Shown piece by piece: positions 18,549 to 35,744 of a stretch of DNA of 64,000 nucleotides (within the stretch, counting starts at the first letter, position 1; each line of letters opens with the position of its first letter). The translations under genes were made by a program, and so were the position numbers. Source of the DNA: Ferrovibrio sp. (GTDB lineage Bacteria; Pseudomonadota; Alphaproteobacteria; Ferrovibrionales; Ferrovibrionaceae); NCBI RefSeq assembly GCF_025869515.1, contig NZ_JAOZVR010000077.1, positions 1 to 64,000 of the forward strand, written 5' to 3'. Under the pieces are notes generated by a model, which worked only from the letters and a program-made list of their open reading frames with translations, searched no databases and was not told the DNA's origin.

Positions 18549-18552
18549 TGAC

Positions 18553-20957: not shown

Positions 20958-21712
20958 CAGAACTGTCCGACCAACGCGTCCTGGTGGCCGGAGGAACGGC
21001 CGGCATTGGTCTGGCAATCGCCCGCCGCGCCATCGCCGCCGGCGCGCGCGTCGTCATCGCCGGCCGTGATCCCCAGCGGGGCGCCGCAGCCCTCGAGCAG
21101 CTGGGCAACCTGCAGGCTTCCTTCATCCGCGGCGATGCCGGCGATCCTGCGGAATGCACCGCCATGGTCGCGGCGGCGGCGGAAAGCTTGGGCGGCATCG
21201 ACGCCCTCTTCTGCTGCAGCGGCGGCAATCCGATGCCGTGCCTGCTGAAGGACATTCCCCTGGACAAGGTCATGGGTATTATCAACCGGTCGCTGGCGCC
21301 GACGATCCTGCCGGCGCGGGCGGTCCTGCCCACCATGACGCAACAGGGCCATGGCGCAATCGTCTGCATTGCCTCCGATGCCGGCAAACTTGCCACGCCA
21401 GGTGAGGTGGCGATCGGCGCGGCGATGGCCGCCATCATCATGTTCTGCCGGGCCATGGCGTATGAGGCAAAGCGCCAGGGTATCCGCGTGAACTGCATCA
21501 CTCCCTCCATTGTCGAGGGCACCGAGCTGCACGACAGTCTGATGAGCGATTCCTTCGCGGGGCGACTGTTTTCCAAAGCCAAGACGCTGGCCCATCTGGG
21601 CGTCGTCCAGGCCGAGGACATTGCCGAAGCGGCACTTTTCCTAGCCGGTCCCGGCGCCGCCCGCATCACCGGCCAGACCCTGTCGGTGACCGGAGGCATC
21701 TCGGCAATCTGA
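20954..21712 (+). CDS. Short-chain dehydrogenase/reductase with altered catalytic residues
   Basis: The protein has 252 residues from a GTG at 20954 that overlaps the previous stop (GTGA). The Rossmann NAD(P) motif is AGGTAGIGLAIAR near residue 11, and a Cys-rich CSGG replaces NNAG. The SDR Ser remains in IASDAGK, but the YxxxK position reads IGAAM, so the catalytic Tyr and Lys both seem to be lost. The C-terminal VNCITPS and TGQTLSVTGG are normal. It probably binds nucleotide but may not be a conventional oxidoreductase. Confidence 0.85.
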   Translation: MTELSDQRVLVAGGTAGIGLAIARRAIAAGARVVIAGRDPQRGAAALEQLGNLQASFIRGDAGDPAECTAMVAAAAESLGGIDALFCCSGGNPMPCLLKDIPLDKVMGIINRSLAPTILPARAVLPTMTQQGHGAIVCIASDAGKLATPGEVAIGAAMAAIIMFCRAMAYEAKRQGIRVNCITPSIVEGTELHDSLMSDSFAGRLFSKAKTLAHLGVVQAEDIAEAALFLAGPGAARITGQTLSVTGGISAI

Positions 21713-21766
21713 GGGCAACCGCCGATAGCCAGAGCGCCCAAACTTCGCTAGAAAAGAAGTGAGGTT

Positions 21767-22432
21767 ATGGAATTTCACAGTAAGGGACCGAAGGCCGTGA
21801 GCATGAACGCGGACCGGGCAACCGAACGGGCTGCCGGTGGCGGCCGCCAGCGTGTCAAGGCCGAGGCAGCGCGCGCCGAGATCCTGGCCACGGCGGCCCG
21901 CATGATGCGGCGGGCAGGTTACTCCGAGATGTCGCTGCGCGATCTGGCTGCCGAGGTCAACATGAAGGCCGGCAGCCTGTACTACCATTTCACCTCGAAA
22001 GACGAGCTGGCCGCCGAGGTGATGCGCATCGGCGTTGAGGCGATCGAGGCCGTGGTGCGCAAGGGCCTCGCCGATGCGGCTGATCACTCGCCGGCGGAAC
22101 GGCTGTCCATCGCCATCAGGATTCATCTGGAAACCCTGCTCGAGAAGAGTGACTTTGTCTCCTCACATATCCGTTGCTATCCCTTCGTGCCGGAGACGGT
22201 GCGCGAGCAGCTACGCGACGTGCGTCGCAGTTACGACCAGCTATGGGTGGAACTGATCCGCGACTTCCTCGGTGCCGGCGTTCCCAATGAAACCGTGCGC
22301 TACCTTCGCTTCGTGCTCATCGGAGCGCTGAACGGTTCGGTCGAATGGTTCAATCCCAACCGGGATTCCATTTCCGACTACGCGCGCATGATCGAGAAAC
22401 TGCTGACCAATCCGTCATTCATAGGCCGCTGA
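21767..22432 (+). CDS. TetR-family regulator
   Basis: This 221-residue protein has an N-terminal three-helix DNA-binding domain around residues 28-80 (ILATAARMMRRAGYSEMSLRDLA, then MKAGSLYYHFTSKDEL) and a helical ligand domain. It follows the SDR by 54 bases in the same direction and precedes the CitE-like lyase by one base, so it is part of the operon it likely controls. Its expected sites are the CTAAC-N8-GTT elements at 15410 and 16394. Confidence 0.9.
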   Translation: MEFHSKGPKAVSMNADRATERAAGGGRQRVKAEAARAEILATAARMMRRAGYSEMSLRDLAAEVNMKAGSLYYHFTSKDELAAEVMRIGVEAIEAVVRKGLADAADHSPAERLSIAIRIHLETLLEKSDFVSSHIRCYPFVPETVREQLRDVRRSYDQLWVELIRDFLGAGVPNETVRYLRFVLIGALNGSVEWFNPNRDSISDYARMIEKLLTNPSFIGR

Positions 22433-22433
22433 C

Positions 22434-23282
22434 GTGTCCTGCCGTTCCTATTTGTTCGTTCCCACCGACAGTTCCCGAAAAATGACGCGTGCGGCGGAGA
22501 GCGGGGCCGATGCCCTGATCCTCGATCTCGAAGATGCCGTGGCGCCCGCCAACAAGGTAGCAGCCCGCACGGAAGCTGCGCGTTTCCTGGCTGAGCCCGT
22601 GCCGATGAAACGCTTCGTGCGGGTGAATGCTCTGGCGACCGGACTGACCGAGGAAGATGTCGCCGCAACCATTGCCGCAGCTCCTGACTGTTATGTTCTA
22701 CCCAAATGCGAGGGACCGGACGATATTGAAACCCTTTCGGGCCTGATCGCAAAGCTGGGTGGCGGTGATGGCATCGGCATCATGTCGATTGGAACGGAGA
22801 CGGTCCGCGGCCTGCGCCGGCTGATGCGCGAGGACTGGCGTCATCCGCGCCTGACCGCCTTCGCCTGGGGCGGCGAGGATCTCTCTGCGGATATGGGCGC
22901 GGAACGCAACCGAGATGCGGCGGGGGCCTATCTAGGCCCGTTCTTAATGGCGCGCGACCACACCCTGCTGGCGGCACTCGAAGCCGGTGCGGAGGCTGTG
23001 GATGCGGTCTTCACCGATTTCCGCGACGAAGCTGGACTGATGCGGGAAGCCCGTCTGGCCAAGACACTGGGATTCAGCGGCAAGATGGCGATCCACCCGG
23101 CGCAGGTGCCGGTCATTCATGCCGCATTCCGGCCGGAACCGGCCGAAGTCGACTGGGCGAAAGCCGTGATTGCAGCTTTGGAAGCCACCGGCGAAGGTGT
23201 TGCCAGCCTAAACGGTATGATGCTCGATCGTCCGCATCTCATCCGGGCGCGCAAAATCCTCGAATGCGAAGCGAGATCCTGA
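22434..23282 (+). CDS. HpcH/HpaI (CitE-like) lyase
   Basis: This 282-residue TIM-barrel protein of the citrate lyase beta/malyl-CoA lyase family starts at GTG 22434, directly after the TetR stop. Family marks are SYLFVPTDSSRKM at the start, ADALILDLEDAVAP with the metal-binding acids, FVRVNAL, and GKMAIHPAQVPVI. Members cleave 3-hydroxy-dicarboxyl-CoA thioesters such as malyl-CoA or citramalyl-CoA into an acyl-CoA and a 2-oxo acid. It would be the last step after carboxylation and hydration. The exact substrate is open. Confidence 0.88.
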   Translation: MSCRSYLFVPTDSSRKMTRAAESGADALILDLEDAVAPANKVAARTEAARFLAEPVPMKRFVRVNALATGLTEEDVAATIAAAPDCYVLPKCEGPDDIETLSGLIAKLGGGDGIGIMSIGTETVRGLRRLMREDWRHPRLTAFAWGGEDLSADMGAERNRDAAGAYLGPFLMARDHTLLAALEAGAEAVDAVFTDFRDEAGLMREARLAKTLGFSGKMAIHPAQVPVIHAAFRPEPAEVDWAKAVIAALEATGEGVASLNGMMLDRPHLIRARKILECEARS

Positions 23283-23383: not shown

Positions 23384-24052
23384 TCAATCACCCAAACTCT
23401 GGATGAGACCCGCTTCGACACTGTCGATGACAGCAGTGTCTGCCGGCACATTCAGCCTGGCCGCCAGACCACCAAGGCCCGCCCCACCGATGACGACGAC
23501 ATCGGCACCATCATGATGCCGGCACTCCCAAACCGCCCGATTTAAAGCTTGGATCGCGAGATCAGGCTGTTCGGCGATGATGGTACCGGTCGTATCGATG
23601 GTGCGAATGCCGGCCAGAACCATCTCATCATTCCGCAAAAGCGGTGCCACCATCGACGGCAGCAGATCACGCCATTGCGTGCCGGCGGTCACGATCCCCA
23701 GTCGCCGGCCACGGCGGCCCGCCGCCAGCAATGAGGCGCCGAGCAGACTGCAAACCGGAATTTCCAGCATCTGCCGTACCGCCGCGACCCCAAGCTCGGC
23801 AAAGCACCCCATGACTATCGCGTCGAAGGCCTTGCCCTGGCCAATGCACAGGTCACGCACGGCTGCGATGGCGGCCGCCTCGCCGGCCCGCATGGTCTCC
23901 ATATCGCCCAGATAGGCCGGCCCACCTGCAGCGGTCACCACCTGGACAACAGCCCGACCGGTCAAAACGATGTCAGCAACATCGGCCAGCCGCTGGCTGA
24001 CGGCAGCGGAACTGTTCGGATTGATCACGAGCAGACGTTTAGCGCGGGACAT
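23384..24052 (-). CDS. Asp/Glu/hydantoin racemase family protein
   Basis: The protein has 222 residues from ATG 24052, which lies inside the preceding permease gene (14-base overlap). It has the two-cysteine layout of the family: Cys in DAIVMGCFAELGV near residue 83 and a second acidic/His region late in the protein, though the expected second Cys (usually GC in the C-terminal half) reads VIGGAGLG here. The N-terminal INPNSS motif is strongly typical of hydantoin racemases and arylmalonate-decarboxylase relatives. It is the last gene of the ten-gene operon. A single catalytic Cys would favour a decarboxylase-like or isomerase role over racemisation. Confidence 0.8.
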   Translation of the reverse strand: MSRAKRLLVINPNSSAAVSQRLADVADIVLTGRAVVQVVTAAGGPAYLGDMETMRAGEAAAIAAVRDLCIGQGKAFDAIVMGCFAELGVAAVRQMLEIPVCSLLGASLLAAGRRGRRLGIVTAGTQWRDLLPSMVAPLLRNDEMVLAGIRTIDTTGTIIAEQPDLAIQALNRAVWECRHHDGADVVVIGGAGLGGLAARLNVPADTAVIDSVEAGLIQSLGD

Positions 24053-24839
24053 GGCCCAGCATGCGGCGATCCAGCACCAGGATAACCACCAGGGTGATGG
24101 CAACGATGATGCCCGAGACCGAGGCCACGCGTACATCAAGGTTGGAGTCGAGCAGGATCCACAGGTTCACCGGCAGGGTCTCGACCCGCGGATCCGACAG
24201 CATCAGCGAGACCGGCACATGGTCGATGGAGCTCAGGAAGGCGATCACGGCGCCGCCTAGCAGGCCGGGCCGGATCAGCGGCAGCGTGACATTGAAGAAA
24301 GTGAAAATCCGGCTCGCCCCCAGGCTGGCCGAACAATCGAGCAGAACCGGATTAAGCTGCTGCACCGCAGCCGAAACCATGCGGATAACAAAGGGCGTGA
24401 CGATCACAGTATGGCCGACGGCCAGACTCCACAGCGCCGGCCGCATACCCAGCAGCGACAGCAGCAGCAGTAGCGCCAGGCCAAGCGACATGGCCGGAAA
24501 GACCATCGGGGACATGAACAGCGAGTCGAGCGCCACCGCCCAGGCCGACCTGCGCCCAGCGACGGCCAACGCCGCCAGAGTGCCGAGCGTGGTGGAGGCC
24601 AGCGTCGAGATCAGTGCCACCTGCAGGCTGATCCAAGCCGAAGCAGCGATCTGCGGCGAGTTCTCGAACAGTTCGATATACCAGCGCACCGACCAGGAGC
24701 GCGGCGGAAACCGCAGCAGGAAATCCCCGGTAAAAGACATTACTAGGATCACCAGTGTGGGCGCGACCAGCAGGATCACCGATGCAGCTGCCAGAAGTCC
24801 AACGACAGTCTCGTAACTGAGGTTTCGCAGTTTAAGCAT
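24039..24839 (-). CDS. ABC transporter permease (PotC-like)
   Basis: This 266-residue protein has about six membrane helices. The binding-protein-dependent permease EAA loop reads LDCSASLGASRIFTFFNVTLPLIRPG near residue 180. It belongs to the spermidine/putrescine-type permease pair with the gene just upstream; the two overlap by eight bases. It imports the substrate presented by the periplasmic protein encoded at 25683. Confidence 0.9.
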   Translation of the reverse strand: MLKLRNLSYETVVGLLAAASVILLVAPTLVILVMSFTGDFLLRFPPRSWSVRWYIELFENSPQIAASAWISLQVALISTLASTTLGTLAALAVAGRRSAWAVALDSLFMSPMVFPAMSLGLALLLLLSLLGMRPALWSLAVGHTVIVTPFVIRMVSAAVQQLNPVLLDCSASLGASRIFTFFNVTLPLIRPGLLGGAVIAFLSSIDHVPVSLMLSDPRVETLPVNLWILLDSNLDVRVASVSGIIVAITLVVILVLDRRMLGHVPR

Positions 24840-25680
24840 CCATGCCCCGTAGATACTTGCGCGAGTAACGATTCATCGCGAACACGATGACCAGGATAGA
24901 GATGGCGAAGACAATGGAGAGTGCTGCCGCAGCATTCCATTTCTGAACACCGATCGCCTGCTGATAGATCAGCAACGGCATGAAGATCTGGCGCCCGCCG
25001 CCGACCAGAGTCTGGCTGACAAAAGCGGTGGATGATCCGGCGAAGGTGAGCAGGAAGCCGGCGATGGCGCCGGGCAGCGACAGTGGCAGGATCACGGTGC
25101 GGAAAACATAGAACCGGCTGGCGCCCAGGCCTTCGGCCGCCTTCACCAGGTTGTCGTTGATGCGTGCCAGCGAGGCGTTTATGGGCAAGGCCATCAGCGG
25201 CAGGAAAATCTGCACCAGCGCCACGATCAGGCCGGTGCGGGTGTAGAGCATACGCAGCGGCTCCTCGATCCAGCCGATGCTCATCAGCGAAATATTGATG
25301 ACGCCTTCGCGACCCAGGATGATCATCCAGGCAAAGGTGCGCACCACCGTGTTGGTCAGCATCGGCAGTAGAATCAGGAATACGATGATGGCGCGCCCGC
25401 GCGGACCGCAGCGCATGAACAGCAGGCCGATCGGATAGGCCGCCAGCATGGTGGCAAAAGACACCTGCAGGCCCAGCACCAGGGTGTCGAACAGGATCCC
25501 CAGGTTGAAGCCATTGGTCAGCGCCGCGACATAATGCACAAGAGTAAAATTGAAACCGCTGGTCGATGCCGACAGGCTGATAATGACCAGGATGACCACC
25601 GGCACCAGGTAGGCGACGGTGAAAAGCAGCGCGAGCGGCGCAGCCGAGAGATATCCCGATACTGCACCGCCCGCCCGCAT
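24832..25680 (-). CDS. ABC transporter permease (PotB-like)
   Basis: This 282-residue membrane protein has its EAA loop near residue 190 (VKAAEGLGASRFYVFRTVILPLSLPG). It starts two bases after the binding-protein stop and overlaps the next permease. It pairs with the PotC-like protein as the translocation channel. Confidence 0.9.
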   Translation of the reverse strand: MRAGGAVSGYLSAAPLALLFTVAYLVPVVILVIISLSASTSGFNFTLVHYVAALTNGFNLGILFDTLVLGLQVSFATMLAAYPIGLLFMRCGPRGRAIIVFLILLPMLTNTVVRTFAWMIILGREGVINISLMSIGWIEEPLRMLYTRTGLIVALVQIFLPLMALPINASLARINDNLVKAAEGLGASRFYVFRTVILPLSLPGAIAGFLLTFAGSSTAFVSQTLVGGGRQIFMPLLIYQQAIGVQKWNAAAALSIVFAISILVIVFAMNRYSRKYLRGMDA

Positions 25681-25682
25681 GA

Positions 25683-26723
25683 TCAGACCCGGATTTCCCG
25701 ATTGAACCGTTCGACCCAGCTCGGGCGGCTGGCAATAAACTTGGTCCAGTCGAGGAAAATGCCACGCTTCAATACATCGCCAACAGTGGCGCCGACATCG
25801 CGATTGAAGCCGGTCAGGGCGACTTTTGGATTGGCCGGCATCATGATCCAGGGCGCCGCCTCCAGCTGCGCCTGTACGACGGGGTCGATTAGCAGATCGA
25901 CCACTTTCTGAGCCAGCTCGGGGTTGCGGGAATTCTTGATCGCCGCGGCGGTCACCGTCTGCAGCGGCAGGCCGCTGGACGGCACGGCAAAAGCGATATC
26001 GGCGCCGCGTGCCTTCAGGGCGGCGACATTGTTGAAGAAGTTCGGCGCGATATCGACCTGACCCTGGCTCAGCGCCGTGGTCAATGCGCCCGGATTGGGC
26101 GGAATGGCACCGACATTGGCCACCAGTTCCTTGAGCGCGGCAAAGCCCGGCTCGACATTGGTTTCCGAGCCGCCGCGCAGCTTGGCCACCTCGATCAGGA
26201 AAGTGGTGCCCAGCGTGGAAGCCGGGCCGACAATGCCGACGCGACCTTTATATTCAGGGTTCCATAGGTCGTTCCACGAGGTCGGCGGGGTTTTGATCTT
26301 TTTCGGGTTATAAGCAATCCCGATGGAGGTCAGCGCCATTGCCGGGCCGAAACCGTCCGGGTCGCGCAGATTGGCCGGCATGTCGGCATAGTTTGGACTG
26401 CCGCTCTCCAGGAATTTCTCAAGCAGCCCATCTTGCTTGGCCGTAATGATCGGCCCGTTGTCCCAGATCGCGACATCGAAAGGCGGATTGTTACGCGAGG
26501 CCTGGATGCGGCCGATCAGGTCGGTGTTCAGCATCGGCGAAAAGGCCGACGTGGCGCCGAACTTCTGCCGGATCTGCGGTCCAACAACGGCTTTGAAGCC
26601 CTCATCTACGCTGCCGGGGTAAGTGGCGATGAAGACCTCTTTCGACTGCGCCATGGCGGGAAAGGCCCCGGCCATGGCACTGCCGGCGAGTATGCCAAGC
26701 ATGGTACGGCGATCGATCTGCAT
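25683..26723 (-). CDS. ABC transporter substrate-binding protein (PotD-like)
   Basis: This 346-residue exported protein has an N-terminus DRRTMLGILAGSAMAGAFPAMA that resembles a twin-arginine signal with a cleavage site after AMA. The mature part has the extracellular solute-binding family 1 pattern of polyamine/thiamine/iron binders (VFIATYPGSVDEGF; AIWDNGPIITAKQDGLLE; IGIAYNPKKIKTPPTSWNDLW). The last phrase is very typical of PotD-type proteins. The ligand is unknown but probably a cationic or nitrogen-rich small molecule given the operon. Confidence 0.9.
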   Translation of the reverse strand: MQIDRRTMLGILAGSAMAGAFPAMAQSKEVFIATYPGSVDEGFKAVVGPQIRQKFGATSAFSPMLNTDLIGRIQASRNNPPFDVAIWDNGPIITAKQDGLLEKFLESGSPNYADMPANLRDPDGFGPAMALTSIGIAYNPKKIKTPPTSWNDLWNPEYKGRVGIVGPASTLGTTFLIEVAKLRGGSETNVEPGFAALKELVANVGAIPPNPGALTTALSQGQVDIAPNFFNNVAALKARGADIAFAVPSSGLPLQTVTAAAIKNSRNPELAQKVVDLLIDPVVQAQLEAAPWIMMPANPKVALTGFNRDVGATVGDVLKRGIFLDWTKFIASRPSWVERFNREIRV

Positions 26724-26750
26724 GTGATGTCCCCTTTTTTGCCTGTCTGG

Positions 26751-27860
26751 TTAATGGTCTGCGGAGGTGGATTGAGTGCCGGCGGAGTAGATCGTGCAGG
26801 CGGCCGGATCGCGGATCGCCATATGGATCAGCTCGCCTGCCGTGTTGCGGATGCCGCCGCGCTGATGCGGCTGGGTGAACTTGAGCACGGTGCCGGTCGC
26901 GGTTTCGGCCTCGATCACATCCATGGAACCGAGTGGCAGTACCTGGCGCACGGTGGCTGTGAACAAACCGCCGTCAGCGTCCGTCAGGCGCAGGTTTTCC
27001 GGCCGGACCGACAGATAGACGGCGCTGCCCGGCGCGTGCTCCTTGTCGCTGGGCACCGCGCAGGCCGCACCGGTGTCGAGTTCAAGGCCGACACTGCCGC
27101 CGTCGCGGCTACGCAGGGTGGCACGAAGCAGGTTGGCATGGCCGAGAAACTGGTTGACGAACAGCGTGCGCGGCCGGTCATACAGATCGGCCGGACTGCC
27201 CAGCTGCTCGATACGGCCCTGGTTCAGCACAACGACCTGGTCGGCCATCGACAGTGCCTCTTCCTGGTCATGGGTCACCAGGATCGAAGTCACACCGGTC
27301 CGCTGCAGCAGCGCCTTCACTTCGATCTGCATGTCGAGCCGCAGGCTCTTGTCCAGCGCTGAGAAAGGTTCATCCAGCAGCACGATCTTGGGTTCGACCG
27401 CCAGCGCACGCGCCAGTGCGATGCGCTGCTGCTGGCCTCCCGACAGCTCGCCAGGCAGGCGATTGCCGAATTTCTCCATCTGCACGAGCCGCAACATCTC
27501 GGCGGTGCGCTCGGCCACAACAGCGGTGGGTTTGCCGCGGGCGCGCAAGCCGTAGCCGACATTCCGGGTGACGCTCATATGCGGAAACAGCGCATAATTC
27601 TGGAACACGATGCCGATGCTTCGCTCGGCCGCTGCCATATCGTCGATGGACACGCCATCCACCAGGATCGATCCGGCCGTCTGGCGGATGAATCCCGCAA
27701 TGACTCGCAGCAACGTGGTCTTGCCGCAGCCCGATGGCCCCAGCAGCGCCGTGAGGCTGCCCGGCGGAATGTCGAGTGAAATCTCGGTCAGCGCAGGCAC
27801 GCCCGCATAGGCATGCGAGACGCGCGACACAGTGAGCTGGTGACCCCGCGCCACCGTCAT
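26751..27860 (-). CDS. ABC transporter ATP-binding protein (PotA-like)
   Basis: This 369-residue protein has Walker A GPSGCGKTT near residue 39, signature LSGGQQQRIALARAL near 138, Walker B IVLLDEPFSALD near 160, and a switch His in ILVTHDQEEAL. A C-terminal TOBE domain (about 285-360) is typical of PotA/FbpC-type ATPases. Its start overlaps the amidohydrolase stop by four bases. It powers uptake through the two permeases downstream. Confidence 0.93.
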   Translation of the reverse strand: MTVARGHQLTVSRVSHAYAGVPALTEISLDIPPGSLTALLGPSGCGKTTLLRVIAGFIRQTAGSILVDGVSIDDMAAAERSIGIVFQNYALFPHMSVTRNVGYGLRARGKPTAVVAERTAEMLRLVQMEKFGNRLPGELSGGQQQRIALARALAVEPKIVLLDEPFSALDKSLRLDMQIEVKALLQRTGVTSILVTHDQEEALSMADQVVVLNQGRIEQLGSPADLYDRPRTLFVNQFLGHANLLRATLRSRDGGSVGLELDTGAACAVPSDKEHAPGSAVYLSVRPENLRLTDADGGLFTATVRQVLPLGSMDVIEAETATGTVLKFTQPHQRGGIRNTAGELIHMAIRDPAACTIYSAGTQSTSADH

Positions 27861-29392
27861 GGCACACCCCCGGTGGCGGCAATGTTGTTGCCTGTCACCA
27901 TCGCCGCGTAATAGTCATGCGCGATCGGGCAGCTCAGGGATTTGAGATAGACCGCCTCGATGGCGTGCTTGAACGGCGCCGTATCGACCTGCGACGACAT
28001 CAGCTGGTCGATCAGTTCAGCATGGGCGCTCTGCGCCTCGCGCAGGACCGCTGTCTCATCAATCGTGGTCAGGCGGCCGTCACGCATGACGATCCGGCCA
28101 TCAACCACGGCCAGGGCGATATTGCTGCCACGCTCACTATAGACGATCTGCCGCACGGGGTCGTTCAGTGGCGTAAAGGTGGTGGAGTCGAGCCGATACC
28201 CGACTAGATCAGCCTTCATGCCAACGGCAATACGGCCGATCTCATTGCCCATGCCGAGCGCTGCCGCGCCGCCTTCGGTGGAGGCGCGAAGGATTTCCGC
28301 CGCAGTCAACCACTGCTTCATGTCCGGGCTGGCCAGATTTGGCAACACCGCGCCTATGCCCATAGCGTTCAGCATATTGACGCCGAATGGCAGGCCGACA
28401 CCGTCGGTACCCATGCTGACATTGATCCCGGCATCCAGGCAGGCGCGCACCGGCGCGATGCCGGCGCCGATGATGGCGTTGCTCCAGGGATTGTACTGCA
28501 CGGTGGCGCCGAGGTCGGCAATCAGGGCGATGTCGCGCTTCGACAGCCAGACGCCATGGATCAGCGTGGTATCTGGCTTGATGAAGCCGATCTCTGCCAT
28601 ATGGGCGACCATCGACTTGCCGTAGAATTCATGACCCGTCACGATCTGCATGCGGGTTTCCTGGCAATGCGTCATCACCGGCAGGGCCAGATCGTCAGCC
28701 AGCCGGCGGCAGCGCCGCAGGAAATCGTCGGTGCAGCGATGCGGTGCCGATGGTGCCACCAGCACGCCGACGCGCGACGAGGCAGGATGATGGCTGTCGG
28801 CCAGATCGGTCACCAGATCCAGCAGGGTGTCGGCCTGCGGTCGCGGCAGTGCGCGCAACTCGGCCAGCAGGTCCGCCGGGAAGCATTCGTCGAGATAGGG
28901 ATAGCTGTCGACCACGGCGCGGTCGATCATGCTGAAGCCTACTAGCGCGCGCACGCCGGCATCCGAATAGGCCTGCAGTGCGGCATCCACATGCTCGCGC
29001 GAAAAGGTCTGGCCCAGCGACAGGTCGTCCACCAGGGTGGTGGCGCCGGTGCGCAACGATTCGATGGCGCCGATCATGGTGCGCAGATACATCTGCCGCG
29101 GCGTGATCTGCACCGGACGGCGCGGCCGGATCAATGCCATGGCCACTTCCATGGTCAGGTTTTCCAAGCAGCCCTTCAGGTAGTGGTCCCAGGAATGCAG
29201 ATGGCCGTTGACCAGGCCGGGAGCCAGCAGCAGGCGCGTCGCATCAACAAACGTGTCGGCGGCCGTGGCCGGCGCCGTGCCAGCCGGTTCGATGGCAGCG
29301 ATGCGGCCATCCCTGATCACCAGGTCGGCGGGCCGGGCCGCACTGCGACTGTCCGGCAATACCTGCGCTCCTGAAAGTACCGTCACCGTCAC
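27857..29392 (-). CDS. Metal-dependent amidohydrolase (TrzN/AtzA/cytosine-deaminase-like)
   Basis: This 511-residue amidohydrolase-superfamily enzyme has the metal set in order: HxH in GLVNGHLHSWDH near residue 65, His in MTHCQET near 240, His in LIHGVW near 275, and Asp in MGTDGVG near 330. An SAPHRCTD motif near 215 is typical of the subgroup that deaminates or dechlorinates triazine, purine and pyrimidine rings. It would remove an amino group (or another leaving group) from an aromatic N-heterocycle. The C-terminal 90 residues after the metal domain are longer than in most deaminases. Confidence 0.85.
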   Translation of the reverse strand: MTVTVLSGAQVLPDSRSAARPADLVIRDGRIAAIEPAGTAPATAADTFVDATRLLLAPGLVNGHLHSWDHYLKGCLENLTMEVAMALIRPRRPVQITPRQMYLRTMIGAIESLRTGATTLVDDLSLGQTFSREHVDAALQAYSDAGVRALVGFSMIDRAVVDSYPYLDECFPADLLAELRALPRPQADTLLDLVTDLADSHHPASSRVGVLVAPSAPHRCTDDFLRRCRRLADDLALPVMTHCQETRMQIVTGHEFYGKSMVAHMAEIGFIKPDTTLIHGVWLSKRDIALIADLGATVQYNPWSNAIIGAGIAPVRACLDAGINVSMGTDGVGLPFGVNMLNAMGIGAVLPNLASPDMKQWLTAAEILRASTEGGAAALGMGNEIGRIAVGMKADLVGYRLDSTTFTPLNDPVRQIVYSERGSNIALAVVDGRIVMRDGRLTTIDETAVLREAQSAHAELIDQLMSSQVDTAPFKHAIEAVYLKSLSCPIAHDYYAAMVTGNNIAATGGVP

Positions 29393-29422
29393 TGCGTCAA
29401 TCCTCCGGGCATGGCATTCCCA

Positions 29423-30433
29423 TCACGAGGCGATGGCTTCTATCTTCACATTGTTGGCCTTGGCGAATTTCATGCGCTTGTGGTCGCCCGAAGTGATGGG
29501 CGCATAGCGTGCCGCACCGCCGTCGGGCTGGCAGCCCGGGATACATTCGATCACCGCGTCGTAGTTGGGCTGGTGGAAGAAGGCGATCGACAGGCGCCGT
29601 GAACCGAGACGGCGATCGACCGGCGGGTTGACCACGCGATGCAGCGTCGACACCCAGCGGTCGTTGGTCCATTGCGCCATCAGGTCGCCGATGTTGATCA
29701 TAAATCCGCCGGGCGGAATCGCCGCATCGATCCAGTCGCCGTCCCGAGTGCGGACCTGCAGGCCGCCGGGAGAATCGTCCCCGCGCAGGATCGTCAGCGC
29801 GCCGTAGTCGGAATGTGCCCCGGCCCGCAATTGGCCGGGCTGCGGTGGCGTCGGCTGGTCGGGATAGTTCTGCGCCCGCAGCAGGCTGATGCATTTGTCG
29901 GTCTTGTCGGCAAACCAGGATTCCGGCAAATCAAGCGCCACTGCGAAGATGCGCATGATGTCGTCGGCCAGCCGGTGCATGGTGCGGAAATACGATATCC
30001 AGGCTGTCCGCAGGTCCTCGGGCCGCTCGGGCCAGATATTGGGCACAAAATGCGGATAAGATTTCGGCCCTGCGTAATCCGGATCGGCCGGCAGGTCGAC
30101 CGGACCGATGGCGAAGGTTTCCTTCAGGTCGAAGGGCGCCGATACATCGAGGCTGTAGGCAAGCGATTCGCGACCGACGGCGTTGTAGCCGCGGCTCGCC
30201 TCCGGTGACGGCCGCTTGACCAAGTCCTTTTCATCGAAGGAAAGATCGAAGAAACGATAGGCTGCATCATAGGCGGATTTGTAGGCGCTGTCCGGAACGC
30301 CGTGACCGGTGAGGGCGAAAAAGCCGATGCTCTCGTTGGCGGTTGCAATGGCAGCAGCGACCTGGGCCTTGTCTGCGGCTGATCCGTTCAGGAAGCCCGA
30401 GATGTCCACCGTGGGAATGCTCTGCCTGTTCAT
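29423..30433 (-). CDS. 2-oxoglutarate/Fe(II) dioxygenase, isopenicillin-N-synthase family
   Basis: This 336-residue protein begins with the DIOX_N region (IPTVDISGFL, SIGFFALTGHGVP). The catalytic domain has the facial triad: His and Asp in AHSDYGALTIL near residue 208, and a distal His in STLHRVVNP near 262. The 2-oxoglutarate-binding Arg-x-Ser is RRLSIAFF near 277. It hydroxylates or oxidatively demethylates a small molecule. Thymine-7-hydroxylase belongs to the same fold, which fits a nucleobase-like substrate. It overlaps the deacetylase stop by four bases. Confidence 0.88.
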   Translation of the reverse strand: MNRQSIPTVDISGFLNGSAADKAQVAAAIATANESIGFFALTGHGVPDSAYKSAYDAAYRFFDLSFDEKDLVKRPSPEASRGYNAVGRESLAYSLDVSAPFDLKETFAIGPVDLPADPDYAGPKSYPHFVPNIWPERPEDLRTAWISYFRTMHRLADDIMRIFAVALDLPESWFADKTDKCISLLRAQNYPDQPTPPQPGQLRAGAHSDYGALTILRGDDSPGGLQVRTRDGDWIDAAIPPGGFMINIGDLMAQWTNDRWVSTLHRVVNPPVDRRLGSRRLSIAFFHQPNYDAVIECIPGCQPDGGAARYAPITSGDHKRMKFAKANNVKIEAIAS

Positions 30434-31362
30434 GCGGATTCCTCCATGACGGGGCGCGCCTGCGTGGGGAACTGTTCGGCCCAGAGTGTCGCCAGATCGA
30501 TGCGGCGCGGCACCCAGATCTGGTCGCCGTAGCTGTCGAGCAACTGCAGAATTCGGCGAAAAGCAGCGAAACGCGCCGGACGGCCGATGATGCGCAGATG
30601 GAAGCCGATATTGAGCAGCTTCGGACAGCCGGCAGCGCCTTCGGCCAGCAGCACCTCGATGGCGTCCTTCACATAGGCCACCATCTCGTCGGCAAGCACG
30701 AAGCCGTTCGGATGGAAGAACTTCATGTCATTGGTGTCGAAGGTGTAGGGCACCACCAGCAACGGCCGCGCCGGCTGCGTCGCATCCCAGTAGGGCAGAT
30801 CGTCATCCAGCCCGTTGCTGGTGTAGGTGAAGCCCAGTTCGCGCAGAATGTCGCGCGTCCAACGGCTTTCGCTGCCGCGGCAGAAAAATCCGACCGGCCG
30901 TTCGCCCGTGGCCAGCCGGATCACTTCGACGCAGCGCTTCAGGTCGGCGCGTTCGGCGTCCGGGCTGTCGTAGTGGGCATGCGGCAGCCAGCGCCAGCCG
31001 TGACAGGCCGCTTCATGGCCGGCGGCCACGATGCGACGCGCAATCTCGGGCGAACGCTCGACCGCACGGCCGCACATGTAGAAGGTGGCAGGCCGACCAT
31101 GCGCTTTCAGCGCATCCAGTACCCGCCAGATGCCGGCGCGCATGCCATAGGCGAAGATCTGCTCGGTACCCTGATCCCAGCGGCCTTCCGGCACCACGCT
31201 GGCCACTTCGGAGATGCGCTCGCTGCTGGCATCGCCATCGCCGGTGGCCAGCTCGGCACCTTCCTCGAAATTTACCACTAGCGAGACAGCCAGCTGAGCA
31301 TCGTTCGGCAACCGTAAAACCGGCGGCTCCGACCCATAACCATGAAGATCGCGTGCGCTCAC
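30430..31362 (-). CDS. PuuE-like polysaccharide-deacetylase-fold hydrolase (allantoinase/cyclic imidase type)
   Basis: This 310-residue NodB-fold protein has VVNFEEGAE near residue 30 and EAACHGWRWLPH near 130, which match the PuuE/allantoinase group rather than true sugar deacetylases; in PuuE the metal-binding residues are partly lost. FFCRGSESRWTRDIL is also typical. The group hydrolyses cyclic ureides or imides such as allantoin. It lies four bases after the PhyH-like gene and is coupled to the next dioxygenase. A ring-opening step is the likely role. Confidence 0.82.
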   Translation of the reverse strand: MSARDLHGYGSEPPVLRLPNDAQLAVSLVVNFEEGAELATGDGDASSERISEVASVVPEGRWDQGTEQIFAYGMRAGIWRVLDALKAHGRPATFYMCGRAVERSPEIARRIVAAGHEAACHGWRWLPHAHYDSPDAERADLKRCVEVIRLATGERPVGFFCRGSESRWTRDILRELGFTYTSNGLDDDLPYWDATQPARPLLVVPYTFDTNDMKFFHPNGFVLADEMVAYVKDAIEVLLAEGAAGCPKLLNIGFHLRIIGRPARFAAFRRILQLLDSYGDQIWVPRRIDLATLWAEQFPTQARPVMEESA

Positions 31363-31366
31363 CGGT

Positions 31367-32263
31367 TCACCCGTTCTTTGCAGTATCGGCGCGGAAAAAG
31401 CGCTTGGTGAACTGCTGCTGCAGGTCGTAGATCATGCCCTTGGTCTGGCGCGGATAAGGCATGCGGATCGGCGTATCCGACAGGCGCGGCCACTGGCTGG
31501 ACTTGCCGCGCACCATGCGGCTTTCGTACTCATCCCAGTCTACGCCATAGAACAGTGGCCAGGCGTCGGCGGCGGCGTATTCAAAAAACAGGATGCGGCG
31601 CGATCCCGCACTGGTGTTGTGGCCGGAACCGTGGATGACCAGCGGGTGATGGATCGACATCGCGCCCGGCGGACCGAGCAGGGTTTCCGCCGCTGTCGTA
31701 TCGATCTTCTCCGCGTCCGTATCGATGGCGCCAAAAAAATAGCCGCCGTGATGATGGTCACGCAGCCCCGTCAGGTGGGTGCCGGTCAGCAAATGCAGCG
31801 GGCCGTTCTCCGTCGTGCAGGCATCGATGGCGATCGATACGAAGGCCATGGACGGATTGGTGTGCGGCACGAAGGCCCAGTCCTGGTGCCATTCCAGCGG
31901 CGAGCCCACAGATGGCATCTTCACGTTGATCTTGGAATGATGCAGTCGGATATCGGGACCGATCAGCTCTTCGACGATATCGAGGATTTCCGGCGCCCGC
32001 GCCAGTTCGGCAAAGAAGGGGTTGATCTCGTGCGGTCGCTTGATGCGCTGGATCACGGGCTGGCCGTTCAGCTTCTCCGGTTCGAAATCGAAATGGGCAT
32101 CGCCCGGGCTACGGCCCTCGCCGTCAGCCATCAGTGCGTCGGCGGCCTCGCGCATACGCGCAACCGTTGCGGCCGAGAGCTGATCCTGCAGGATCAGGCA
32201 GCCATTGGTCTCGAACGCCTGGCGAAAGCCGCTGGTGTTTTTTGCAATCGCAGCTTCAGGCAT
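31367..32263 (-). CDS. Phytanoyl-CoA dioxygenase (PhyH) family protein
   Basis: The protein has 298 residues from an ATG at 32263, which overlaps the barbiturase-like gene by eight bases; the longer upstream frame lies wholly in that gene and is rejected. The iron triad is HQD in EWHQDWAF near residue 130 and a distal His in VIHGSGHNTS near 215. The 2-oxoglutarate Arg is in AGSRRILFF. PhyH relatives hydroxylate many small substrates. This is the second 2-oxoglutarate dioxygenase of the operon and belongs to a different family from the one at 29423. Confidence 0.87.
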   Translation of the reverse strand: MPEAAIAKNTSGFRQAFETNGCLILQDQLSAATVARMREAADALMADGEGRSPGDAHFDFEPEKLNGQPVIQRIKRPHEINPFFAELARAPEILDIVEELIGPDIRLHHSKINVKMPSVGSPLEWHQDWAFVPHTNPSMAFVSIAIDACTTENGPLHLLTGTHLTGLRDHHHGGYFFGAIDTDAEKIDTTAAETLLGPPGAMSIHHPLVIHGSGHNTSAGSRRILFFEYAAADAWPLFYGVDWDEYESRMVRGKSSQWPRLSDTPIRMPYPRQTKGMIYDLQQQFTKRFFRADTAKNG

Positions 32264-33347
32264 TGCTTGCCTCCCTGGAGAAAACCACCAGCACGCCGCC
32301 CCCTTCAGGACCCTGGTGCTCGGCGCCGCCGGCGCAGAAGACGCGCGTATTGCCGAGCAGGCTGGACAGCATGCCGCCGACGGCGGCGCGCACATGGCGC
32401 GGTGGCTGGATATCGCTGTCGCGCCAGATCACGTGGCGACGGCCGCGGATGACCTCGGCAGCCGGCGGATCGCCCTTGAACAGCACGCCATCAATCCGCG
32501 TGCTCTCCGTGACCGCCAGTTGCGGATCCGGTGTGAAACCTAGCCGGCGCAGCAGACCGGTGGCCGATTTCAAGTCGATCAGGTCCTGTAACGCGGTGGC
32601 ACCGACGCGATGCGGCCCGATCCAGCCCGACGCATGGCCGAACACGATGATATCGCAACGCATGTCGGTATTACCTGGCGTCACGATGGCGCGGCTGGTC
32701 TGCAACCGGCCGTCCTCTAGCGAGGCATCGTTCAGACCGGCCATGTCGACCTCGCCGAGGGCCGCAGCCACGCCGATGGCGCAGGCCGCCCGGGTTAGCG
32801 GTTTGGAGGCATGCGGCCGTATGGCGCGAACTTCCACCTTGCGGCCCATCGCATCGGCGATGGCGGCATCGGTGAGCAGAGCTGCCTTGATTTGTACGAA
32901 GGCGACGTCAGCCGCTGTCATGCCAGCGTCCTGCATGGCTGTCTCAACTGCTTCGGCCGTTGCCCTCACCTGCCCCAGCGTGCCGATCTCTTCCGGCGCC
33001 AGCAGACGGGTGCGCGCATGACCGACGGCCAGCGCACGCGTATCGTCAGTCTGCGCATCCTGGACGTCGCGCCGCTGCACGACGATGTAATGCGGCGACA
33101 GCACACCCTCGCAGCCACCCGAGGCGATCAGCACTGGTGCCGCGCCGTAGCGGGAGAAAATGCCCTGCAACGTCATTGCGGCGACATCGCGGCTGAAGTC
33201 GTTGTCCTGGCCGTTGCCTTCCGTCTTCACGTAAATGCAGACCACGGCGACCGGATCGATCCGGCCTTCGGCAATGGCGGCAATGAGCGCCGACATATCC
33301 GACGGCGCAGTCATCCCGAAACTGAACACTTCGCCCAAACGCGGCAT
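32256..33347 (-). CDS. Ring-opening amidohydrolase (barbiturase/cyanuric acid hydrolase family)
   Basis: The protein has 363 residues from ATG 33347, chosen because GGAGAG lies seven bases upstream; the frame could extend to 33389. The length matches AtzD. Family motifs: LIASGGCEGVLSPHYIV near residue 75, FVQIKAALL near 150, HASKPLTRAACAIGVAAAL near 180, and NTRVFCAGGAEHQGPEGGG near 340. The Ser/Lys pairs of the three-fold repeat are present. The family hydrolyses a C-N bond of cyanuric acid or barbiturate and occurs in few genomes. It is the first gene of the operon, next to the 37-bp palindrome. Confidence 0.92.
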   Translation of the reverse strand: MPRLGEVFSFGMTAPSDMSALIAAIAEGRIDPVAVVCIYVKTEGNGQDNDFSRDVAAMTLQGIFSRYGAAPVLIASGGCEGVLSPHYIVVQRRDVQDAQTDDTRALAVGHARTRLLAPEEIGTLGQVRATAEAVETAMQDAGMTAADVAFVQIKAALLTDAAIADAMGRKVEVRAIRPHASKPLTRAACAIGVAAALGEVDMAGLNDASLEDGRLQTSRAIVTPGNTDMRCDIIVFGHASGWIGPHRVGATALQDLIDLKSATGLLRRLGFTPDPQLAVTESTRIDGVLFKGDPPAAEVIRGRRHVIWRDSDIQPPRHVRAAVGGMLSSLLGNTRVFCAGGAEHQGPEGGGVLVVFSREASNA

Positions 33348-33504
33348 CACAGCTCTCCGAAGGAAGTCCTCCATCCGGTCGAATTGCAACCGCCGTGCCA
33401 GAGCCCGGGCGAGACTGCGGAATATCGGGAAGTGGCTGATTTACGGGAGTATTCGGATAATGCGGCTGGCGGCGCGGATCTGTCGGCCAAAACCTGCCCA
33501 GCCC

Positions 33505-33541
33505 AATATGTGCACATTCATTCGGTGAATGTGCACATATT
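33505..33541. promoter_or_regulatory. 37-bp perfect inverted repeat, probable GntR double operator
   Basis: Arms AATATGTGCACATTCA (33505-33520) and TGAATGTGCACATATT (33526-33541) pair perfectly across TTCGG. Each arm holds a copy of the self-complementary ATGTGCACAT, and the two are 21 bases apart, about two helix turns. It lies in the 323-base divergent gap between the barbiturase-like gene and the M20 hydrolase gene, so one site can control both. The rest of the gap holds no gene I can support. Confidence 0.75.
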
Positions 33542-33670
33542 TGCGACACAGATTCTGCCGCCGAATGCGCCAGCCTCCCAAATCACGGAGAAAAAAGCGT
33601 GCCGCGGTCGGCATGGAGATTGCAACGCCCAGTGTATGAAAACGCCGCCTCAGGACGCGAGTGAAGAAAC

Positions 33671-34960
33671 ATGAGCACCAGCGGATTGGACGCCGATCTC
33701 ACGGCGGAGATCGACCTTGCGGCAACGCTGTTCGACAGCCTGCGCGACAGATCGCGCAGCCGGCTCGGCGTCACCCGCGCCTCCTATGGCGAGGGCGAGC
33801 AGATGGCTCACGATCTGATGAGCCAGCTGGGAGAGACCCTGGATCTGGAGCGGCGCATTGATGCAGCTGGCAATCTGTACCTGACGCTGCCCGGCCGCGA
33901 CCGCAGCCTGCCGGTCATCATGACCGGTTCTCACCTTGATTCAGTGCCAGAAGGCGGCAATTACGACGGCGCCGCCGGAGTGGTCGCCGGTATGGCGACG
34001 CTGGCGCGCTGGCGCCGCGCCGGTCGGCAGCCGCACCGCGACATTACCGTGATGGGCGTGCGTGCCGAGGAGCTTTCCTGGTTCCCCGCCCCATATATCG
34101 GGAGCCGCGCCGCTTTCGGCCTGTTGGAACCCGAGGCCCTCGACGCCTGCCGCCGGCCGGATACCGGAAAGACCCTGGCCGAGCATATGGTGCTGGCCGG
34201 TTTCGCGCCCGACCGCATCCGTGCCGGCGAGGCACAGATCGCCGTTGATCGGGTGCACTGCTTCCTCGAACTGCATATCGAGCAGGGACCCGTGCTGGTG
34301 CAGCGCGCGTTGCCAGTCGGCATCGTCACCGGCATCCGCGGCAACCTGCGCTATCGCCATTGCCACATCGCCGGGCGTTATGGCCATGCCGGGGCAGAGC
34401 CGCGCGAGAGCCGTCAGGATGCCTTGCTGGCCGGCGTGGACTTCATCCACCGCCTGGAATCTCTGTGGCTGGAGCATGAACGCGATGGCAAGGATCTGGT
34501 CTGCACGGTGGGGCAGTTCCATACCGACACGGCCGTACATACCATGACCAAAATCCCGGGCGAACTGTGGTTCACCATGGATCTCCGTAGCGAGGACAAC
34601 GATGTGCTGCTCGCCATCGACCGCCGCCTGCGAATCCATGCCGACGAGATCAGCCAGCAACGACGCGTCCGGATGGACCTTGGTGACTACACCAATGCGC
34701 TACCGGGCCCAATCGATCCGGCCCACTTGCAGAGGCTGACACAGCTGGCTAAGACCTTGGGGATTCCAGCCATGACGATGGCCAGCGGCGCCGGTCATGA
34801 TGCGGCCGTCTTCGGCAACAGGGGCATTCCGACCGCCATGATCTTCATCCGCAACGAGCATGGCAGCCACAATCCCGATGAGGCGATGGAGATGGCGGAT
34901 TTCGCCCAGGGCCTGAAGCTCCTGGTGGCCGCCGTGGAGGATATTGATGCCGCCCTCTAA
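33671..34960 (+). CDS. M20-family N-carbamoylase/allantoate amidohydrolase-like enzyme
   Basis: This 429-residue dimetal amidase has metal-ligand motifs GSHLDSVPEGGNYDG near residue 86, EEL near 127 (usually EEGSRF, here EELSWF), ELHIEQGP near 200, and a late His in GSHNPDE near 400. GAGHDA near 375 is typical of N-carbamoyl-amino-acid hydrolases and allantoate amidohydrolases. It would release ammonia and CO2 from a ureido group, the expected product after ring opening. It is divergent from the operon and overlaps the GntR gene by 14 bases. Confidence 0.88.
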   Translation: MSTSGLDADLTAEIDLAATLFDSLRDRSRSRLGVTRASYGEGEQMAHDLMSQLGETLDLERRIDAAGNLYLTLPGRDRSLPVIMTGSHLDSVPEGGNYDGAAGVVAGMATLARWRRAGRQPHRDITVMGVRAEELSWFPAPYIGSRAAFGLLEPEALDACRRPDTGKTLAEHMVLAGFAPDRIRAGEAQIAVDRVHCFLELHIEQGPVLVQRALPVGIVTGIRGNLRYRHCHIAGRYGHAGAEPRESRQDALLAGVDFIHRLESLWLEHERDGKDLVCTVGQFHTDTAVHTMTKIPGELWFTMDLRSEDNDVLLAIDRRLRIHADEISQQRRVRMDLGDYTNALPGPIDPAHLQRLTQLAKTLGIPAMTMASGAGHDAAVFGNRGIPTAMIFIRNEHGSHNPDEAMEMADFAQGLKLLVAAVEDIDAAL

Positions 34961-35744
34961 AACGAAAGGCGCTGCGACTAAGCCACGGAAAAAGGGCGAC
35001 GTCGATACTGATGAAGCGATCTACAACGCCATTCGGCAAGCCATGCTGATGGGCAAGCTGCCGGCCGGGCTCAACCTGCAGGAGCCGACGCTGGCACGGG
35101 CGCTGGGCGTCAGCCGCGAACGCGTGCGTAAGGCGCTGCACCGCCTGGCGCATGAACGCTGGCTCGACATGATTCCCAATCGCGGCACCTTCGTGCCAAC
35201 GCCAACCATCGAGGAACTGCACAATATTTATGAGGCACGGAAGATTCTGGAGGTCGGCATCGCCCGAAAGCTGGCGACACGTCGCGCTTTCATCGATACC
35301 GAGCGTCTGAACCAGCACGTCGCATCGGAAAAGAAAGCGATCAAGACAGACGACCGTGGGCGGTTATTCAGACTATCGGCCGAATTCCATTTCCTGCTGG
35401 CCGAACTGAGCGGCAACGACCAGCTCATCGACATGCTGCGCGGACTTCTGACCCGATCATCGCTGCATTTCTCGCTCTTCGCACCCAAACGCCTGCATAA
35501 CTGCGCCGGCCCGCATGAGCATGAGGATATCGCTGATGCCATCCTGGAGGGTGACACCACTCGAGCCGCGAAGCTAATGCTGGACCATCTGGTCGGACTT
35601 GAAACAATGCTGTCGGTGCGCGATCGCGTCGACAACTTCACCAGCCTGGAGGATGTCTTCCGGTGTACGGCAGTGGGCCGCGGCAGGACATCCCTGGCTA
35701 CCGGCAAAAAGCAAGGCGGAAGATCGGACGGTAAGAAGTCCTAA
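34947..35744 (+). CDS. GntR-family regulator (FCD type)
   Basis: The protein has 265 residues from ATG 34947, inside the 3' end of the M20 gene. A basic N-terminal tail precedes the winged helix (about residues 22-95, with LARALGVSRERVRKALHRLA and IPNRGTFV). The FCD domain follows (EARKILE, EFHFLLAEL). A basic tail (KKQGGRSDGKK) ends the protein. It most likely binds the double palindrome at 33505-33541. Its stop is two bases before the right repeat copy begins. Confidence 0.9.
   Translation: MPPSKTKGAATKPRKKGDVDTDEAIYNAIRQAMLMGKLPAGLNLQEPTLARALGVSRERVRKALHRLAHERWLDMIPNRGTFVPTPTIEELHNIYEARKILEVGIARKLATRRAFIDTERLNQHVASEKKAIKTDDRGRLFRLSAEFHFLLAELSGNDQLIDMLRGLLTRSSLHFSLFAPKRLHNCAGPHEHEDIADAILEGDTTRAAKLMLDHLVGLETMLSVRDRVDNFTSLEDVFRCTAVGRGRTSLATGKKQGGRSDGKKS

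Follow-up and report, generated by a model that had tools for sequence, protein, structure and literature searches.

What compound would a bacterium import and take apart with a gene cluster that joins a relative of cyanuric acid hydrolase, two 2-oxoglutarate (2OG) dioxygenases, several C–N hydrolases and an ABC importer? The cluster lies at 23384 to 35744 of a 64,000-nucleotide stretch of Ferrovibrio sp. (contig NZ_JAOZVR010000077.1), the whole of which we call the window. Ten minus-strand genes run from 33389 to 23384, and an M20 hydrolase gene and a GntR regulator gene diverge on the plus strand from 33671. An earlier note, made from the letters alone, had read the cluster as a complete module for import and ring opening of an N-heterocycle. 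The answer that we favor, and regard as rather probable, is a catabolic operon under GntR control, whose products take up and break down a cyclic ureide that resembles a purine or a pyrimidine and carries amino and alkyl groups. The families are known ones in a new arrangement, probably for oxidative-hydrolytic breakdown of such a ring. A nucleobase-like substrate is supported because the gene set recurs in other genomes and nucleoside-type genes adjoin it. Import followed by hydrolytic and oxidative breakdown of such a heterocycle, as the note had it, is thereby supported; the word "complete" is not.

Recurrence and layout of the gene set

The best conserved part consists of the four importer genes together with the TRZ/ATZ amidohydrolase, the thymine-7-hydroxylase-like (T7H-like) dioxygenase and the PuuE-like hydrolase, which are syntenic in four genomes of another family, f128, at 49–70% identity. 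TRZ/ATZ relatives of 65–68% identity occur in 6 of the 23 genomes of that family, and four of the six (G144, G412, G413, G414) keep one gene order: TRZ/ATZ, ATPase, solute-binding protein (SBP), PotB, PotC, T7H-like, amidase-signature enzyme, PuuE-like, racemase-like. The amidase-signature enzyme was tested against Pfam Amidase in L154 and assigned in the others by 86–90% identity to the L154 protein. The binding proteins are 60–62% identical to the window SBP, and the racemase-like gene is present in all four loci. In G410, a reading of 20 kb to each side of TRZ/ATZ showed none of the other operon genes, and the G411 contig is too short to judge gene order. The TRZ/ATZ orthologue is rare: at E 1e-110, 3 of the 367 class genomes searched have it and 1 of the 398 phylum genomes, the window's own genome counted in both. 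The recurrence of this central block is beyond chance, and the arrangement of ten leftward genes opposite a divergent hydrolase and GntR gene is borne out by the open reading frames (ORFs).

Looser forms of the set carry the neighbors that bear on the substrate. In family f15, G340 has AtzD, T7H-like, PotBC, ATPase, racemase-family, TRZ/ATZ, PuuE-family, GntR and M20 genes within about 11 kb. In G261 the set is the same except that no racemase-family gene was detected and the locus ends within M20; next to it lie genes for an IunH nucleoside hydrolase and for an importer of the BMP/PnrA nucleoside type. The f15 proteins are 25–50% identical to the window's, and their AtzD is canonical. The congener G013 reads AtzD, LysR, T7H-like (51%), AtzD and BMP-type binding protein, with T7H-like directly before AtzD. 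Upstream of TRZ/ATZ in G144, among more T7H-like genes, are an AtzD-family gene whose product has Val at position 226, some 2 kb away, and a CDA-fold deaminase gene, some 4 kb away. About 10 kb of Beijerinckia sp. L45 (L120, 10013–18511) holds PotBC, AtzD, PuuE-type, TRZ/ATZ and dihydropyrimidinase genes and, a few kb from AtzD, RutA, RutB and RutD, all three above their NCBI cut-offs. In Azospirillum, an importer related to the window's adjoins a hydroxyisourate hydrolase. Since the named neighbors are IunH, BMP importers, a CDA-fold deaminase, Rut genes and hydroxyisourate hydrolase, nucleosides or nucleobases are indicated. Roseibium (L074) has a Pot importer, racemase-family, TRZ/ATZ and AtzD in one run, with a PuuE-type and a 30% T7H-like gene 7–8 kb off, and in L075 a 50% T7H-like gene lies 2.3 kb from AtzD on the opposite strand. 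Reduced forms were found in the window's own genome (C118: importer at 52–55%, PuuE-like at 56% and GntR at 33%) and on the Comamonadaceae plasmid CP099607 (importer at 38–50%, an annotated nucleoside deaminase, TRZ/ATZ at 54%, PuuE-like at 43%). Two further loci are recorded for their content. An island in G144 (C21, 5–32 kb, L153–L154) holds four T7H-like dioxygenases, several Pot-type importer genes, an amidase, a deaminase and an AtzD-like gene, and in R. johnstonii 3841 pRL10 (59–84 kb, L202) a 51% TRZ/ATZ relative stands with RidA, racemase-family, second amidohydrolase and GntR genes.

Gene links to AtzD were counted in the 80 best loci of the contig collection and in 14 loci from whole genomes. 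PuuE-type genes occur in 6 of 80 and 3 of 14, PotB in 14 and 2, SBP in 6 and 2, racemase-family in 3 and 1, T7H-like in 2 and 2, M20 in 1 and 2, GntR in 26 and 2, and PhyH in 0 and 0. TRZ/ATZ is the commonest enzyme partner (16 of 80 and 4 of 14) and directly precedes AtzD in 10 of the 80. The 28 comparison loci not chosen for AtzD gave PuuE 1, TRZ/ATZ 2, PotB 2, SBP 0, racemase 0, M20 0 and GntR 2; they are a rough control only, because the profiles were built partly from the 80-locus set, and T7H and PhyH are not comparable in them, most having been chosen for those genes. Most single gene links to AtzD are weak. A T7H-like gene lies at most 5 kb from AtzD in 5 of 16 class genomes (G000, G013, G144, G340, G261), the 16 being those with about 10 kb read around at least one AtzD gene (less at contig ends) among the 23 of 385 class genomes that have AtzD; the loci of the other seven, of only 2.6–4.1 kb, have no T7H-like gene. 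By rough arithmetic this proximity is far above chance, but G340 and G261 were found with a looser threshold.

In the ORF list of the window, the ten leftward genes overlap or are at most 30 bases apart, the widest gap being 29393–29422. Because they overlap or stand so close together, we infer from spacing that they form one operon. Overlaps of 4 bases join PuuE-like to T7H-like and TRZ/ATZ to the ATPase, and one of 8 joins the two permeases. Two more depend on inferred starts: 8 bases between AtzD-family and PhyH, and 14 between the PotC-type permease and the racemase-family gene. The overlaps of 4–8 bases or tiny gaps described earlier thus stand for most joints, the last being the exception, and the run's described start at 33347 is an in-frame ATG within an AtzD frame listed from TTG at 33389. 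The two rightward genes overlap by 17 bases as listed. All twelve proteins were assigned with Pfam, with NCBIfam and PDB sequence searches besides (Table 1), and these agree with the family calls of the note.

Table 1. Genes and candidate operator of the cluster, with window positions and the matches that assign them.
Feature	Position	Strand	Basis and remarks
AtzD/TrzD (Toblerone-fold) family protein, divergent	32256-33389	-	TTG start; in-frame ATG possible at 33347; PF09663 320 bits
PhyH-family 2OG/Fe(II) dioxygenase	31367-32263	-	ATG start inferred; PF05721 112 bits; HQD motif
PuuE-like cyclic ureide/imide hydrolase, polysaccharide-deacetylase fold	30430-31362	-	TIGR03212 284.5 bits; PDB PuuE 3cl6 E 1.7e-76
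Isopenicillin-N-synthase-type 2OG dioxygenase, T7H-like	29423-30433	-	PF14226 and PF03171; PDB 5c3p
TRZ/ATZ-type amidohydrolase, predicted deaminase	27857-29392	-	PF01979 154 bits; HLH, HCQE, LIHG, GTDG motifs
ABC importer ATPase, PotA type	26751-27860	-	Pfam, NCBIfam
Periplasmic SBP, PotD/ThiB-like	25683-26723	-	SBP_bac_6 103.5 bits
ABC permease, PotB type	24832-25680	-	PF00528
ABC permease, PotC type	24039-24839	-	PF00528
Asp/Glu/hydantoin racemase-family protein, one motif Cys	23384 to about 24052	-	ATG start inferred; PF01177 104 bits; nearest PDB 5lfd
M20 carbamoylase/allantoate-amidohydrolase-type hydrolase	33671-34960	+	PF01546; NF009527; TIGR01879; PDB 3n5f, 1z2l
GntR-family regulator, FCD type	34944-35744	+	PF07729 FCD 81.3 bits and PF00392 GntR 49.1 bits, both above cut-off
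Candidate GntR operator, inverted repeat	33505-33541	between arms	16+16 bases, 100% complementary, 5-base centre

The regulator is listed from a TTG start, the true start may be downstream, and none of its 15 NCBIfam matches is above cut-off. Between the arms of the cluster, each half of the inverted repeat contains ATGTGCACAT. A pair of ATGTGCACAT at this spacing occurs at one site in the genome, the window's, and the repeat may well be the GntR operator; two copies of the 10-mer per window are unremarkable by count, shuffles averaging 1.9 with one mismatch allowed. A sigma-70 promoter search of the intergenic region gave no match, and from its two terminator-like matches (0.3 expected) we draw no interpretation. 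The adjoining rightward set at 18439–23282 has the look of acyl-CoA metabolism, with biotin carboxylase, MaoC-type, SDR and HpcH/HpaI citrate-lyase-type genes (Pfam), and includes a TetR-looking gene, read by eye, at 21767–22432.

The AtzD-family and racemase-family proteins

The PF09663 score of the AtzD-family protein (cut-off 25) places it in the Toblerone-fold family. Its AlphaFold model has a mean pLDDT of 80.3, with several loops, including 315–329 and 354–362, below 50, and Foldseek matches the predicted fold best to PDB entry 5t13 (TM 0.86), which is also best by sequence. On the cyanuric acid hydrolase equivalog model NF052395 it scores 322.5 bits, below the cut-off of 360, and nine relatives tested score 480–554 bits, all above. 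Its best identity to relatives is 45% in the order and class samples, 35–44% among the 80 contig-collection loci, closer relatives than which may exist, and at most 39.4% among the 30 of 132 plasmid matches listed. A single-sequence scan of the contig collection with the protein gave no match.

Its residues were mapped by alignment to the A. caulinodans cyanuric acid hydrolase, with functional residues from PMC4051656. That paper gives Ser226–Lys156 as the only absolutely conserved dyad, a contact of the Ser227 backbone nitrogen with a ring carbonyl, and Gln at position 188 in barbiturases. In this numbering, the window protein retains Lys40, Lys156 (here Lys168), Lys285, Arg52, Arg188, Arg314 and Ser79. 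Four other positions are substituted: Ser226 by Thr237, Ser227 by Pro238, Glu230 by Thr241 and Ser333 by Ala353. Since Ser227 has become proline, the reported backbone hydrogen bond to the ring carbonyl is impossible. Of 122 other distinct AtzD-family sequences, 116 have Ser at position 226, 4 have Val and 2 have Phe, the two Phe rows being possible alignment shifts; 230 is Glu in 118 and Asp in 4, 333 is Ser in all 122, and 227 is Pro in one. Thr226, Thr230 and Ala333 each occur in the window protein only, and the full set of four substitutions is shared by none of the 122. With the nucleophile and its partners lost, the expectation that this protein opens a ring by the known mechanism is not supported. 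It may be a hydrolase re-engineered so that Thr237 or Ser90 does the work of Ser226, or it may have ceased to be a hydrolase. In the AtzD tree its branch is 2.11 long (median 0.22), and we do not trust its placement with L029 and L030 because such branches are long.

Other AtzD copies were seen along the way. The genus has a second, canonical AtzD gene (own genome C62, L009 9683–15355; also L011 and L008). Beside it are the genes of an ABC importer whose binding protein is of the NMT1/THI5 type by Pfam, and of a FAD-binding-3 protein, identified with Pfam in L008 and by eye in L011. Genus g134 of family f128 (G144, G406, G410, G411, G412, G414) has 2–4 AtzD-family genes per genome, some matches being two pieces of one frame, and in four genomes the nucleophile position of one copy is occupied by Val.

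The families of AtzD and of the TRZ/ATZ amidohydrolase together call to mind degradation of cyanuric acid or an s-triazine. We find this highly improbable, given the sub-threshold NF052395 score and the loss of Ser226, Glu230 and Ser333; in addition, Pfam and NCBIfam detect neither a biuret hydrolase nor an AtzE-type gene among the operon genes, and two dioxygenases would be left unexplained.

Two motif cysteines are catalytic in hydantoin and allantoin racemases. The racemase-family protein, whose nearest PDB entry is an allantoin racemase, keeps the first (MGCF) and has IGGAGL where relatives have LGCAG, so that the second is Gly. Of eight relatives aligned, three have both cysteines (L074, L087, L173), one is like the window's (L100, beside AtzD) and four have neither, three of these from one genus. 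A racemase of the two-cysteine kind is an unlikely identity for this protein, and a role in racemizing hydantoins is not supported, the second cysteine being lost.

Catalytic residues are thus lost in two proteins, one of them on a very long branch, and neither AtzD nor PhyH is in the syntenic loci of relatives. On these grounds the AtzD- and racemase-family genes might be passengers losing function, the working parts being the importer, the amidohydrolase and the T7H-like, PuuE-like and M20 enzymes. We consider this unlikely. Both frames are intact and overlap their neighbors, the predicted AtzD fold is intact apart from its low-scoring loops, and six Lys/Arg pocket residues and Ser79 are kept. 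The racemase-like gene is also conserved in the four syntenic loci, and its one-Cys version recurs next to AtzD in L100.

Dioxygenases, hydrolases and the proposed route

The nearest PDB entry to the T7H-like dioxygenase is 5c3p, "Thymine dioxygenase" (E 4e-47), presumably the N. crassa thymine-7-hydroxylase described in PMC4787775. Residues named in that paper were mapped by hand from the 5c3p alignment, chain numbering being paper numbering + 2. The window enzyme keeps the iron ligands His207, Asp209 and His265 and the equivalents of Arg190, Tyr217, Phe292, Arg286 and Ser288. Asn87 and Asn294 of the fungal enzyme, described there as contacting the base directly or via water, are Ser and Gln here, so the base contacts are not conserved. 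At E 1e-60, with no more than five candidates scored in each genome, 46 of the 367 genomes searched gave 61 T7H-like matches; the nearness of T7H-like genes to AtzD was judged against this frequency. The T7H-like gene was considered as a constant marker of nucleobase loci and rejected, the neighbors being mixed in the 13 of 18 T7H-chosen loci (L155–L172) read by eye.

This enzyme also suggests a route in which it makes a barbiturate-type trione from uracil or thymine and the AtzD-family enzyme opens the trione. Its closeness to thymine-7-hydroxylase, the adjacency of AtzD and T7H with nucleoside-type importers and once with a nucleoside hydrolase, and AtzD near Rut genes in Beijerinckia all speak for it. 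The altered Asn87 and Asn294 positions speak against it, as does an AtzD protein without its nucleophile that keeps Arg188 where barbiturases are reported to have Gln; neither Pfam nor NCBIfam gives a dihydropyrimidine- or Rut-type match for any operon gene. On balance such a route appears quite improbable.

The PhyH, M20 and TRZ/ATZ proteins retain the motifs expected of their families, for TRZ/ATZ the ligand set HxH, His, His, Asp. With these metal-site motifs and its PF01979 score, TRZ/ATZ belongs to its family; it reaches no cut-off among the 25 of 44 NCBIfam matches listed. M20 scores 497 bits on NF009527 (cut-off 461) and 277 on TIGR01879 (cut-off 204), and falls under the cut-off of every allantoate model listed by NCBIfam. 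The PuuE-like protein is under the TIGR03212 allantoinase cut-off of 424.6, and a separate PuuE gene of the same genome (C55) passes it at 451.9 bits. A tree of 18 rows places the window protein with the C118 paralogue and the f128 proteins (100/99), apart from true PuuE and from the AtzD-linked PuuE-type proteins of other genomes.

These results bear on a uricolytic or allantoin operon, in which the racemase-family protein would be an allantoin racemase, PuuE-like the allantoinase and M20 the allantoate amidohydrolase, the rest serving upstream purine oxidation. Family matches to all three enzymes, and the Azospirillum hydroxyisourate hydrolase beside a related importer, fit it. It is nonetheless unlikely, considering the low PuuE score set against the passing gene elsewhere in the genome and the tree that splits the two, the missing second Cys, and M20 under its allantoate cut-offs.

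Under the favored reading of a nucleobase-like cyclic ureide, the steps would most likely follow in this order. The Pot-type ABC system would take the compound up, and the TRZ/ATZ amidohydrolase, to judge from its metal site, would remove an exocyclic amine. The T7H-like dioxygenase, and here also PhyH, may hydroxylate a ring carbon or a side methyl, T7H-like having the iron and 2OG residues to do so. PuuE-like would then hydrolyze a cyclic ureide or imide bond, and a further C–N hydrolase, AtzD-fold here and amidase-signature in the syntenic relatives, would finish or precede that step. M20 would remove an N-carbamoyl group. Relative to the nearest relatives, the variable parts are this extra C–N hydrolase (AtzD-fold or amidase), M20, GntR and PhyH; the difference in gene content is observed, and a functional exchange of AtzD for amidase is our inference.

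Several points weigh against this reading. No relatives of AtzD, PhyH, M20 or GntR are in the four syntenic f128 loci (L154, L203, L204, L206), even at E 1e-3. The f15 loci of G340 and G261 have no binding protein like the window's, and their PuuE-family proteins are of the other clade. CP099607 has no AtzD or dioxygenase match, and the substrate of the reduced modules could vary from genome to genome. The gene contexts of T7H-like proteins of about 50% identity are mixed, and therefore the presence of this gene is not enough to establish a pyrimidine as the substrate. The note had looked to co-occurrence of AtzD, both dioxygenases and PuuE in other genomes. AtzD, T7H-like and PuuE-family genes do stand together in L173, L174 and G144 (about 12 kb) and more loosely in L074, though the PuuE-family proteins of L173, L174 and L074 are of a different clade from the window's; PhyH is near AtzD in none of 94 other loci, so no tested locus has both dioxygenases. 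Among plasmid PhyH relatives, the other operon parts are not present in the three annotated loci read. No protein from an operon of this type has, to our knowledge, been characterized biochemically.

A bolder extension, which we hold to be doubtful, is an undescribed proteobacterial oxidative nucleobase pathway in which a T7H-type 2OG dioxygenase, not a flavin or molybdenum enzyme, would ready the ring for opening by the Toblerone fold, in the window lineage with Thr for the supposedly invariant Ser and on a new, less symmetrical ring. If it were true, part of the AtzD family would gain a natural substrate other than cyanuric acid. The nine AtzD relatives tested all pass the NCBI model that bears the name cyanuric acid amidohydrolase, yet among the loci read those of G013 and G261 adjoin BMP importers, G261 also a nucleoside hydrolase, that of L120 is near Rut genes, and a T7H-like gene is within 5 kb in 5 of the 16 class genomes. 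If some of these enzymes act on natural nucleobase derivatives, that name is wrong for some members, and one could test what the family did until industrial triazines appeared. From the window member, which has no nucleophile, it could be learned whether a Toblerone fold can change mechanism.

Comparison with known systems

A literature search returned no paper describing this gene set, in keeping with the note's remark that no described pathway has it; the evidence is weak, the results being partly unrelated and subscription journals outside the scope. The nearest likenesses are partial. Rut and oxidative pyrimidine pathways cleave nucleobase rings, and AtzD is near Rut genes in one relative (L120), whereas the window operon is without RutA, uracil dehydrogenase and dihydropyrimidinase. 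Cyanuric acid hydrolases and barbiturases share the fold and seven pocket residues with the window protein, which differs at Ser226, Ser227, Glu230 and Ser333 and is at most 45% identical to the relatives found. Fungal thymine-7-hydroxylase is of the same family as the T7H-like enzyme and has the same iron ligands and five further equivalent residues; the window enzyme is bacterial and operonic, with the Asn87 and Asn294 positions changed. Finally, PuuE allantoinase and hydantoin gene sets resemble the window in bringing together PuuE-like, racemase-family and M20 carbamoylase-type genes. The window differs from them in a PuuE-like protein under the cut-off, a racemase-family protein minus one Cys, and the addition of two dioxygenases and a deaminase-type amidohydrolase.

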